From NCBI GenBank assembly GCA_031258835.1, contig JAIRMH010000052.1:1-33825 (forward strand): DNA of 33,825 nt. Direction: 5' to 3'. This stretch comes from Tannerella sp. (GTDB lineage Bacteria; Bacteroidota; Bacteroidia; Bacteroidales; Tannerellaceae). The notes beneath the pieces are model-generated. The model searched no databases. It was given only the letters and a program-made list of their open reading frames with translations, and was not told where the DNA came from. Numbering within the stretch: position 1 is the stretch's first letter; each line of letters opens with the position of its first letter. This document shows, one piece after another, positions 121-32,852 of the stretch. Made by a program: the position numbers and the translations under genes.

Positions 121-190
121 TTTCCCCGATAAATTTCGGCGGACATTTTTATCGGTATGTGTGGAATGTCGAAAATTTTATGTATATTTG
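121..190 (+). repeat. Copy A of a ~70-bp dispersed promoter-like repeat
   Basis: tttccccgataaatttcggcggacatttttatcggtatgtgtggaatgtcgaaaattttatgtatatttg; near-identical to the reverse complements of 5709-5777 and 32783-32852; ends in TATATTTG. Confidence 0.85.
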
Positions 191-353
191 ACACGCCTAA
201 AAAGCAGTTCTTTGAGCGTATTAATAATTTTATTGCATTTGATGATTGGGTCTGCGGTGAAATATTTTGCACATAATGATTGCATATTGAAAAAATGTTT
301 TCTAAATTTGTCGTGTTTTTTGATTTTTACTAACAATAATAATATTAAGTACT

Positions 354-1229
354 ATGCAAAGCAGACGTGATTTTATTAAGCGAGCATCTATGTTGATTGC
401 CGGAGGCGTTGTGTCTCCAAACCTTATGTCTTCCGGTGGAGGGATACCTGCGCCGTCGAAGTATCTTGGACTTCAGCTTTATTCTCTTCGTGAGATGATA
501 AATGACGAAGGTATACGTAAAGTGTTGGAGGTAGTTGCGGGAATGGGCTATAACAGCCTTGAAACCGCCAGTTATGGCGATGGGAAATTCTATGGAGAAG
601 ATCCTGTTGAATTGAAAAAAATAGTGGGAGATTTGGGCATGAAGTTGACAAGCTCTCATATCGGACGTAATATCACAAAAGATCATGACGAAGACATGGC
701 TTGGTGGAACAAAGCGGTTGAAGCGCATAACGCCGCAGGCATGAAATATATGATAATGCCATCCTCGCCATTGAATGAAGGCGCTACCCTTGATAAGGTT
801 AAACGTTATGGGGATTATTTTAATGAAATAGCCCTGATCACGGCCGGAGCGAGCATACAATTCGGTTATCATAATCACGCTTTTGAATTTGAGACTAAAA
901 TCGACGACATTCCTGTTTATGACCTCCTGTTAAAAAATACAAGCCCCCGTCATGTGATTTTCCAACTTGACGTTTACTGGATTAAGAAAGGCGGATATGA
1001 TCCTGTTGATTATATGAAGAAATATCCGAAACGCATTAAAGTATTGCATATTAAAGACGAAACCGCTATTGGCGCTCAGAATACGGTTAACTATAAAGAT
1101 ATATTCGAGCAGGCTTATATCAATAAAATAAAAGATTGGTATGTAGAAGTAGAAGAATACGATACGACACCGGAGGAAGACGTCAGAAAAAGTGCGGACT
1201 ATTTGCTGAATGCCGATTTCGTGAAGTAA
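354..1229 (+). CDS. Sugar phosphate isomerase/epimerase-like TIM-barrel protein with Tat signal
   Basis: MQSRRDFIKRASMLIAGGVV Tat-type leader; motifs SLREMI, FGYHNHAFEF, QLDVYWIKKGG, VLHIKDE typical of xylose-isomerase-like TIM barrels. Confidence 0.85.
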   Translation: MQSRRDFIKRASMLIAGGVVSPNLMSSGGGIPAPSKYLGLQLYSLREMINDEGIRKVLEVVAGMGYNSLETASYGDGKFYGEDPVELKKIVGDLGMKLTSSHIGRNITKDHDEDMAWWNKAVEAHNAAGMKYMIMPSSPLNEGATLDKVKRYGDYFNEIALITAGASIQFGYHNHAFEFETKIDDIPVYDLLLKNTSPRHVIFQLDVYWIKKGGYDPVDYMKKYPKRIKVLHIKDETAIGAQNTVNYKDIFEQAYINKIKDWYVEVEEYDTTPEEDVRKSADYLLNADFVK

Positions 1230-3976: not shown

Positions 3977-5683
3977 CTAATTACAGTTCTCTTTTATCAG
4001 CTTCTCTACGACCGGGTCGCCTAATTCCTTTGCTTTCTCGAAATTCTTACATGCCTCCTCCTTCTTATCCTGACGGATGAGGCTGACGCCTAACAGTCGG
4101 TATGCAGAGGCGAATGTCGGATCCTGTACAATCGCTTTCTCCACACATTCCTGCGCTTTGACAGGCTCTTTAAGGCGCAGATAAACGGAAGCCATTTCTG
4201 CCTGATAGACGGCGTTATCTTTGTCGAGCGAAATAGCTTTCTCGATATCTTTCAGCGCGCCTTCGAGGTCGTTGGAACGAAATTTTGCTTGTTCGCGATA
4301 ATAATAAAAAGCGTCGCCAACGTTTCCACCGGTAAATATATAATATTTATCATAATCTTTGACTGCCTGCTCATAAAATCCCGTCTGCATCTTTAGTTCC
4401 ACACTTTCCAGCAGATACGCCTGCGCTTCGGCAATGGGGCTTTTTGCAATGGCGCTATCCAGTAGCGTGATGATTTCCATGTAATTGGAGCCGGGTATCT
4501 GTTGTTTGCATTTAGCGGCAAGATAATACGATGCGCCGGAGGCTACCGGGCTATGGTTGACCATGGAATATGCCTGGAACGCCTTTTCGTAATCGCCGTT
4601 ATAGAAAGCGATGTCGCCTTCTAATTGGCGGTACAGGGGAAGATCTTCCTCCGATAAGGCTTTTTGCGTGTATCCTTCTGCGGTTTCGACATTCCAGTTT
4701 TTGTGGCGGAGCGTGCTGTCGCTGGTTGCTATTCCGAAAATGAGTTTTGCCTTGTTATAATATATGTTTCCTCTGTTTTTTGTTTGTTTTTCGATTTTTT
4801 CAAGATCGGCCAGCGCCAGGTCCAGCATCTTAAGTTGTTCATTTTCCGTGGGCGCCAGTTCTTTGCGACGATAGGCGTAATGCGACGCCCGGCTGATATA
4901 GCCTTCCTCATGATAGGGGAATGTCGTGATAAAATCGTTCAACGTTTCGAGGTATAAACGGGCATCTTCTCTTGACGTGTGGAGTAACAGGGCGATCTGC
5001 GCATCTTCTGCCGTTGGGGGCCATGCTTTACGTATCCCGATATCCGAGTATGTACGTTTCAGCATATCCATAGAAGTGATTTGCAGGCTTTTGATATATG
5101 CAACAGAGATACCGTAGGTCTTTCCCTTTCCCGATGCATCGGCCTGCGTTAATGCAAAGACCTCGCCGTTTTCGGTTAATAACGGATAGCCTTCCTGCGA
5201 TTTGGGAAGCGGCATATCTATTTTGTAATAATCATAAGCGCCGTTGATTTTTGTTATCTCCAGGATGCTTCCCTGCACCAGCTCTTTTACTTCCGCCGAA
5301 GGTGGGATATAGGCGGCAGATCCTGTTTGTACCGCCGTTTTTACTTGAGTTAAGAAGGTTGTTTTTTTTGGAATGGCGACTTTGAAACAAATCACTCCGT
5401 ACATTTCGTCGACACCTAATATGTGTGTGACAGGCAGTTTCTCACCGGAGGAAGTTGTTACTACGGCTTCCTTGGCATTTTTGAATAAATCGAACGACGA
5501 TACCGCTTCGCCGTTCTCTTGAATGAAGAACCCGTTTCCCGTTTTGGATACGCCCTCTTTGGTTGTTGTTTCAACGGTTATGATAGCTTTCGACGCCTTG
5601 TCGAGCCATTTGGGCGCTTTTTTTTGTGCGGCAGCCGAAACTGTTTGTAACACTGTTAATAATAGTATGAATACTTTCTTCAT
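3977..5683 (-). CDS. Secreted protein with an N-terminal trypsin-like (apparently catalytically degenerate) domain and C-terminal TPR repeats
   Basis: Signal peptide MKKVFILLLTVLQTVSAAAQ at 5683; S1C-like fold pattern GNGFFIQENGEAVSSFDLFKNA; TPR units such as GALKDIEKAISLDKDNAVYQAEMASVYLRLKEPVKAQECVEKAIVQDP. The longer ORF start at 6037 runs into araB and is unlikely. Confidence 0.8.
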   Translation of the reverse strand: MKKVFILLLTVLQTVSAAAQKKAPKWLDKASKAIITVETTTKEGVSKTGNGFFIQENGEAVSSFDLFKNAKEAVVTTSSGEKLPVTHILGVDEMYGVICFKVAIPKKTTFLTQVKTAVQTGSAAYIPPSAEVKELVQGSILEITKINGAYDYYKIDMPLPKSQEGYPLLTENGEVFALTQADASGKGKTYGISVAYIKSLQITSMDMLKRTYSDIGIRKAWPPTAEDAQIALLLHTSREDARLYLETLNDFITTFPYHEEGYISRASHYAYRRKELAPTENEQLKMLDLALADLEKIEKQTKNRGNIYYNKAKLIFGIATSDSTLRHKNWNVETAEGYTQKALSEEDLPLYRQLEGDIAFYNGDYEKAFQAYSMVNHSPVASGASYYLAAKCKQQIPGSNYMEIITLLDSAIAKSPIAEAQAYLLESVELKMQTGFYEQAVKDYDKYYIFTGGNVGDAFYYYREQAKFRSNDLEGALKDIEKAISLDKDNAVYQAEMASVYLRLKEPVKAQECVEKAIVQDPTFASAYRLLGVSLIRQDKKEEACKNFEKAKELGDPVVEKLIKENCN

Positions 5684-5708: not shown

Positions 5709-5777
5709 CAAAAATACATGAAATTTTCGACATTCCACACAGCCGGATAAAAATGTCCGGTGAAATTCGTAAGGAAA
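5709..5777 (-). repeat. Copy B of the ~70-bp dispersed promoter-like repeat
   Basis: Minus strand: ..acgaatttcaccggacatttttatccggctgtgtggaatgtcgaaaatttcatgtatttttg; ends in TATTTTTG, 25 nt before the start codon at 5683. Confidence 0.85.
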
Positions 5778-31741: not shown

Positions 31742-32761
31742 TCAATAAGCGGCCTCGAACTGACGGAGGAAACGTTCGTCGTTTTCGGAGAACAGGCGCA
31801 AATCTTTTACCCTGTATTTGAGGTTGGTAATACGTTCGATACCCATGCCAAACGCATAGCCGGAATATATATGGCTGTCTATACCACAATTATCCAGTAC
31901 GTTCGGGTCGACCATTCCGCACCCTAATATTTCTACCCATCCCGTATGTTTGCAGAAAGGACAACCTTTCCCGCCGCAGATATTACAGCTGATATCCATT
32001 TCCGCGCTTGGCTCCGTAAACGGAAAATACGACGGACGAAGGCGTATATTTGTTTCCGGGCCGAAAAGTTCTTTGGCGAAGAACAATAGCGCCTGTTTCA
32101 AGTCGGCAAACGAGACATCTTTATCTACATACAGTCCTTCAACCTGATGGAAGAAACAATGAGCGCGGTAAGATATTGCTTCGTTACGGTAAACGCGTCC
32201 CGGGCAGATGATCCGGACAGGCGGTTGCCGACGTTCCATCACACGCGTCTGAACCGAAGAGGTATGTGTACGAAGCAATACGTCAGGGTTATGTCGTATA
32301 AAAAACGTATCTTGCATATCGCGCGCCGGATGGTCATCGGCAAAGTTAAGCGACGAAAACACGTGCCAGTCATCTTCTATTTCCGGCCCTTCCGCGATGC
32401 TGAAGCCAAGTCTGCCGAAGATATCGCAAATCTCTTTTTTCACAACGGAGAGAGGATGTCGCGTACCGAGCGTAGCCGGATATGCTGTTCGTGTAAGGTC
32501 TAAATCATTATCCGAAGATTTCAGATTTTCAAAACCTTCTTTCAATTCATTTATTTTGTTTTGCGTGAGTTCCTTTAGCTCGTTAAGGTATTTACCTACT
32601 TCGCGTTTACGGTCGGTCGCCACATTGCGGAAATCGTTCATAAGCGAGGAAACCGCGCCTTTCTTACTCAGGTATTTTATACGTAACGTCTCCACGTCGT
32701 CTGCGCTTCCGGCTTTCAGTTCCCGGACTTCCTTCATCAGATCCTTAATTTTGTCGATCAT
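31742..32761 (-). CDS. pheS: Phenylalanyl-tRNA synthetase alpha subunit
   Basis: HPLSVVKKEICDIFGRLGFSIAEGPEIEDDWHVF, NFADDHPARDMQDTFFI, LRTHTSSVQTRVM, GRVYRNEAISYRAHCFFHQVEGLYVD, GYAFGMGIERI; start MIDKIKDL at 32761. Confidence 0.96.
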   Translation of the reverse strand: MIDKIKDLMKEVRELKAGSADDVETLRIKYLSKKGAVSSLMNDFRNVATDRKREVGKYLNELKELTQNKINELKEGFENLKSSDNDLDLTRTAYPATLGTRHPLSVVKKEICDIFGRLGFSIAEGPEIEDDWHVFSSLNFADDHPARDMQDTFFIRHNPDVLLRTHTSSVQTRVMERRQPPVRIICPGRVYRNEAISYRAHCFFHQVEGLYVDKDVSFADLKQALLFFAKELFGPETNIRLRPSYFPFTEPSAEMDISCNICGGKGCPFCKHTGWVEILGCGMVDPNVLDNCGIDSHIYSGYAFGMGIERITNLKYRVKDLRLFSENDERFLRQFEAAY

Positions 32762-32782: not shown

Positions 32783-32852
32783 CAAATGTACATGAAATTT
32801 TCGACATTCCACACAGACCGATAAAAATGTCCGGCGAAATTTATAGGGGAAA
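32783..32852 (-). repeat. Copy C of the ~70-bp dispersed promoter-like repeat
   Basis: Minus strand: tttcccctataaatttcgccggacatttttatcggtctgtgtggaatgtcgaaaatttcatgtacatttg; ends in TACATTTG, 21 nt before the pheS start codon. Confidence 0.85.

Follow-up and report, generated by a model that had tools for sequence, protein, structure and literature searches.

What is the segment of approximately 70 bp that recurs in front of different transcription units on this contig of a Tannerella sp. genome, and how did it come to be there? The first-pass annotation of the window (the whole stretch of 33,825 nucleotides analysed here) had placed three copies at 121-190 on the forward strand and at 5709-5777 and 32783-32852 on the reverse strand, and all three were found at these coordinates and in these orientations. 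Indeed, a 29-base core (GACATTTTTATCnnnnTGTGTGGAATGTC) has three exact matches in the window, against none expected from shuffled sequences, and reading of the sequence bears out that TGTG precedes the TA of the -7 box by 19 nt in copies A, B and C alike. The description as a three-copy repeat thus holds for the window, but not for the genome. In the host MAG (4.2 Mb in 354 contigs, 86% complete with 5% contamination, the window being contig 109), a model trained on 39 sequences of the family retrieved at least 150 members (E <= 1.6e-6), with 150 of the 150 scored candidates matched, and a pattern search allowing up to three mismatches gave 48 matches, with none in the reversed control.

We consider it likely that this repeat, hereafter P1, is a non-autonomous, promoter-carrying mobile element of approximately 65-66 bp lodged in the -7 boxes of existing sigma-ABfr promoters. 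In Bacteroidetes, promoters of this type have a -7 box TAnnTTTG and a -33 box TTTG (PMC7366714). P1 resembles them in carrying TAnnTTTG, with TGTG where those have TTTG (at a distance of 19 nt in copies A, B and C and of 18-19 nt across the family, a spacing that matches the sigma-ABfr architecture reported for Bacteroides, PMC7366714), and its targets have TAnnTTTG as well; it differs from a plain consensus promoter in being a conserved, apparently mobile unit of 66 bp, the conservation of which reaches upstream of the core promoter. From this -33/-7 consensus, we infer both the promoter activity of P1 and its start sites. The unit (CCCCTATAAATTTYGCCGGACATTTTTATCGGTCTGTGTGGAATGTCGAAAATTTCATGTACATTT, with TTT before and G after) occurs mainly in two lengths, 66 bp in copies of the GGAATGTCGAAAA type and 65 bp in those of the GTGATTGAAAA type, has conserved ends (left CYYCTRTAAA, right TTTCATGTAnnTTT) and takes a single orientation within target -7 boxes (TAnnTTT^G).

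Copy A, identified by sequence, family model and exact pattern, consists of a left junction TTT at 121-123, an inserted unit of 66 bp at 124-189, a -33-like TGTG at 160-163 and a rebuilt -7 box TATATTTG at 183-190, all on the forward strand upstream of a TIM-barrel gene (354-1229, forward strand; PF01261, E 3.2e-13). Copy B, on the reverse strand, opens with TTT at 5778-5776, continues with a 66-bp unit at 5775-5710 and ends in the -7 box TATTTTTG at 5716-5709; compared with the element-less orthologues L240-L243, it is inserted at TTTTT^G of a native -7 box. The start codon downstream lies at 5683 and opens a TPR-repeat gene (3977-5683, reverse strand; TPR Pfam matches), the first gene in the TPR/tkt/rpiB unit, which copy B would drive. 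Copy C, for which element-less orthologues (e.g. L213, L214) were also found, has on the reverse strand its left TTT at 32852-32850, its 66-bp unit at 32849-32784 and its -7 box TACATTTG at 32790-32783. It is the predicted promoter of pheS (31742-32761, reverse strand; PF01409, E 2.7e-91), the start codon of which falls 18 nt past the modelled end of the copy.

Two details of the earlier description of copy A did not hold. The long leader of 163 nt that it implied is not required, as a closer, conserved native promoter is found at 280-310 on the forward strand, with TTG at 280-282, a 20-nt spacer and a -7 box TAAATTTG at 303-310; the orthologues in two relatives (L334, L335) are preceded, at an equal distance, by a closely matching sequence. 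Because the TIM-barrel gene retains this proximal promoter, copy A is best read as an additional, upstream promoter. Nor does similarity end at TTTG in every copy, since copy A shares approximately 66 bp more (191-256, forward strand) with eight other copies. Sequence comparison identifies this stretch, directly 3' of copy A, as a second dispersed repeat, R2 (ACACGCCTAAAAAGCAGTTCTTTGAGCGTATTAATAATTTTGTTGCATTTGATGGTTGAATCTGCG), which adjoins eight other element copies (L013, L007, L009, L006, L110, L122, L171, L176), occurs also without an intact element (L119:1078-1143, L188:1950-2015) and is strongly conserved, with 44 invariant columns across 11 copies.

Throughout the MAG, P1 is short, multicopy and mostly directly upstream of genes, and its 65-66 bp are too short for a protein. 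Among the 138 copies with enough flank for a gene-distance test, 113 have, within the next 400 nt downstream, the ATG of a reading frame that spans 100 aa or more, as against 48% of random points. The distances concentrate at 12-34 nt. A start codon within 60 nt was found for 69 of the 122 copies that have a -7 box and for none of the 16 that lack one (p = 1e-5). Besides these box-less copies, some are truncated and some are tandem, the latter joined where ACATTT (...GTACATTT) meets CYCC. The closest copies of equal length show at least two differences in 66 positions, so that the burst of P1 does not seem to be a very recent one, unless the youngest copies were lost in assembly.

Orthologues of several P1-driven genes in relatives have no element and keep a native sigma-ABfr promoter, and the comparison places P1 inside the resident -7 box, after its TTT and before its G (TAnnTTT^G). 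The best-supported empty sites are those of folP, purL, sufS, abcF and the TPR gene (copy B), that of pheS (copy C) being weaker. At folP, the clearest site, the filled sequence reads GGTTATTTTCATACATTT, element, Gcgagttaaaaagttt, versus GGTTATTTTCATACATTTGcggactaaaaagttt in the relative L300, with flank identities of 18/18 on the left and 13/16 on the right. The corresponding values with element-less orthologues are 15/18 and 13/16 for sufS, 13-14/18 and 12-14/16 for the TPR gene, and 13/18 on the left for pheS, while the matching flanks of the empty site at purL and abcF were established by direct reading. These identities derive from an ungapped flank comparison, used in place of an automated best-deletion scan that agreed exactly with the P1 ends only at sufS and was noisy at most other loci, because leaders differ in length. 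The automatic placement in the ungapped comparison itself chose the wrong TTT at abcF, purL L320 and pheS L211, where direct reading is clearer.

Overall, orthologue pairs with a matching right flank reach at least 12/18 left identities in 43% of cases, versus 5% for mismatched loci. A TA at -4 in the left flank, the remains of a target -7 box, is present in 31 of 76 full-length copies versus a background of 7.9% (p = 4e-15), approximately 60% of full-length copies having no strict TA at this position. Only the right flank aligns with orthologues at lysC, hflX, tldD, sppA and metF; at the tRNA synthetase, hflX, lysC, sppA and tldD, conservation covers the leader that follows TTT^G, the upstream side being uninformative. 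The genes ruvC, ppk, pyrK and the sigma54-regulator gene offered no usable orthologue comparison. TTT is single in empty sites and stands at both ends of filled sites, and it may belong to the right end of P1.

The distribution of the family among relatives is uneven. Genomes of the genus contain 0-24 detectable copies versus at least 150 in this MAG, the genus scan having used stricter filters under which this MAG yields 115. In a set of 61 genomes from 25 genera, matches to the core pattern are confined to one genus, and the related MAGs that display them are labelled Dysgonamonadaceae, Tannerella, Prevotellaceae and Mediterranea in public records, which marks this as a Bacteroidales lineage. 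When the element-driven genes of relatives were compared, one (ppk) proved to be element-driven here too, and two gave weak matches that are paralogues at best. The second richest genome (G035) possesses a distinct P1 subfamily sited at other genes, several copies of which lie inside the -7 boxes of another promoter repeat. This subfamily (TTCTATAAATTTTATCGAACATTTTTATGCG...AATGCTAACTTTG; L367-L370) was repeatedly seen occupying a -7 box that belongs to a P2-like promoter (see below), and the two may move together as one composite.

At least 30 further promoters end in TTTTTCATGTAnnTTTG, and most of them were assigned to a second family, P2 (CTTCTGTAAAAAAAC...TTTGGAAAACCCAAGTTTTTCATGTAGTTTTG), with tens of copies (L384-L413, L005, L006, L126). 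Full-length P2 copies start with CTTCTGTAAA and end like P1, around an unrelated interior: identity between the two families is 9/11 and 12/16 at the ends and 11/38 in the middle, where 10.4 is expected by chance. Shared ends around unrelated interiors are the expected trace of end recognition by an enzyme, an argument of moderate strength as the 3' part is also promoter consensus. Some P2 copies were also observed to have inserted directly into a P1 copy, within its -7 box (L005).

A mechanism can be proposed for how P1 takes over a promoter. Its left end joins the TTT of the target and its right end puts TGTAnnTTT ahead of the target's G. Insertion would swap the native -33 box and upstream part for P1's own TGTG and upstream segment, with no change in the -7 G, the start point or the leader; -7 box, G and leader persist because the right end supplies a new TAnnTTT. 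The gene would presumably stay expressed from a standard strong promoter, making insertion nearly cost-free. As the right end of P1 is itself another TTT^G box, the element could nest into itself, and insertion into its own -7 box would produce tandem arrays. Mobilisation would occur in trans, by a putative recombinase or transposase recognizing the conserved ends defined above, which P1 and P2 share despite their unrelated interiors. More speculatively, P1, P2 and the species-specific subfamilies might be promoter-parasitic mini-elements for which the -7 box is the attachment site, rebuilt on insertion so that the gene is kept running and a new site is made, an idea that we hold only tentatively; the attachment site could possibly be the TTT strand that is melted when RNA polymerase forms an open complex.

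Searches for a mobiliser and an origin gave negative results. Terminal inverted repeats of P1 reach 1-4 matches in 12 terminal positions, and 16-25% of shuffles attain the local score. The Y1 (PF01797) transposase of IS200 and RAYT systems had no match in the 86%-complete MAG, with positive controls, and neither an autonomous P1 copy nor a related IS was present in the flanks examined. Carriage of P1 by phages, plasmids or viral contigs gave no match, and no known RNA family was detected in the window at gathering thresholds. Mobilisation by a Y1 transposase or RAYT was rejected on account of the absence of Y1 from the MAG, as were a single-strand hairpin element, the DNA fold being no better than shuffles (z = 0.36), and conserved subterminal hairpins, the GACATT/AATGTC pairing of which is missing in the 65-bp, G035 and P2 consensuses.

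The lack of inverted repeats and of a candidate transposase would fit a spread that needs no enzyme, in which microhomology template switching or short gene conversion copies the inter-box segment into the TAnnTTT of another promoter. Such a process would also explain why TTT, and often TAnnTTT, is common to both junctions, and slippage could yield the tandem arrays. Some 5'-shortened P1 copies begin at internal T-runs, which is suggestive at most, since selection on the promoter core would look similar. This alternative, which concerns the mechanism and not the pattern, nevertheless appears unlikely, given the specific ends that P1 and P2 share beyond TTT around unrelated middles, the uniform length of P1 (65-66 bp) and its lineage-specific amplification.

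Of the two interpretations offered by the first-pass annotation, a mobile promoter cassette is strongly supported by empty orthologous sites, lineage-specific copies, nesting, truncation and position upstream of starts, although the annotation did not foresee that the element would be seated within an existing promoter's -7 box and rebuild it. The other, a regulon element in which a factor site and a promoter are held by selection before co-regulated genes, would account for the conserved sequence extending upstream beyond the core promoter, but is now largely refuted and must be regarded as very improbable. Indeed, the genes downstream of P1 (40 scanned, plus those in the window) are functionally mixed, including pheS, ruvC, folP, purL, MTHFR, polyphosphate kinase, TldD, glycosidases, AAA-ATPases, a class I tRNA synthetase (labelled ileS), an aminotransferase (labelled sufS) and an ABC-F-type ATPase. 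Moreover, the whole segment is missing from the relatives' orthologues, several with clean junctions, and box-less, tandem and truncated copies exist.

That one strong type of sigma-ABfr promoter was inherited vertically or reached by convergent optimisation, as the frequency of an extended -7 3' part (TTTCATGTAnnTTTG) in the genus and in P2 might suggest, is scarcely credible in view of identities of up to 97% over 70 bp between copies at unrelated genes, exact insertion junctions and orthologues without the element. An assembly or binning artefact, conceivable for a MAG with the contig number, completeness and contamination given above, in which two contigs terminate near element copies sharing one flank, is just as implausible, since most copies are internal to contigs with unique flanks on both sides and related MAGs carry the family independently.

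The mobile element favoured here can be set against several known systems. Putative mobile promoters are short promoter-bearing repeats that precede non-homologous genes within a single genome (Matus-Garcia, Nijveen and van Passel 2012, 'Promoter propagation in prokaryotes', via PMC9208149), and P1 likewise presents nearly the same promoter segment in front of several genes that are not homologous. Relative to their account in the citing paper (PMC9208149), P1 adds empty sites, an exact TTT^G junction, box rebuilding and at least 150 copies. BrickBuilt and MITEPgRS are MITEs of Porphyromonas gingivalis, which also belongs to the order Bacteroidales (PMC4596501); like them, P1 is short, non-coding, intergenic and dispersed, and the TTT at both of its junctions, possibly a duplication, resembles their AAAA or GAAA target duplications. 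BrickBuilt, however, has 12-bp inverted repeats matching the IS5 family, where P1 has none above chance, and exceeds it in length (10,276 bp for 19 copies together, with a 23-nt internal repeat, versus 65-66 bp) (PMC4596501). The Mutator-like elements TnGBS, ISLre2 and ISKra4 share with P1 a promoter-directed, mostly oriented and gene-sparing insertion, but their insertion point lies 15-17 bp upstream of the -35 box and they encode a DDE transposase (PMC3942029), whereas P1 enters the -7 box itself and encodes nothing. Within the literature accessible to this analysis, an insertion that falls in the -7 box and reconstructs it is a new feature.

If this interpretation is correct, a mobile unit of 66 bp has overwritten many promoters in a single lineage of bacteria, landing in their core without destroying it, and P1 could take control of a gene without breaking it. 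Mobile promoters would thereby gain an exact insertion site and a reason for harmless insertion, Bacteroidales would have a fast path to regulatory rewiring, and the concrete question would become which enzyme targets the -7 box. Promoter motif surveys in such genomes may also take a mobile element for a regulatory consensus.

Several minor observations were made along the way. Head-to-head P1 pairs between divergent genes (L156, C208:17035-17163; L187, C324:9093-9324) are predicted to be bidirectional promoters. Two contigs (L155, C269:1-173; L161, C251:1-174) have an identical 119-bp end, each leading into a different P1 copy; this flank was considered as an IS and rejected, as by eye it looks like a gene end at an assembly branch point, with the last codons, on the reverse strand, supplied by the element. 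The contig pair possibly represents strain-level alleles. R2 itself holds a promoter-like pair, TTTG...GCATTTG. Finally, long GAGAGA microsatellites lie 3' of R2 at L122 and L176, inside or beside small reading frames, which suggests that the genes near them may be phase-variable.
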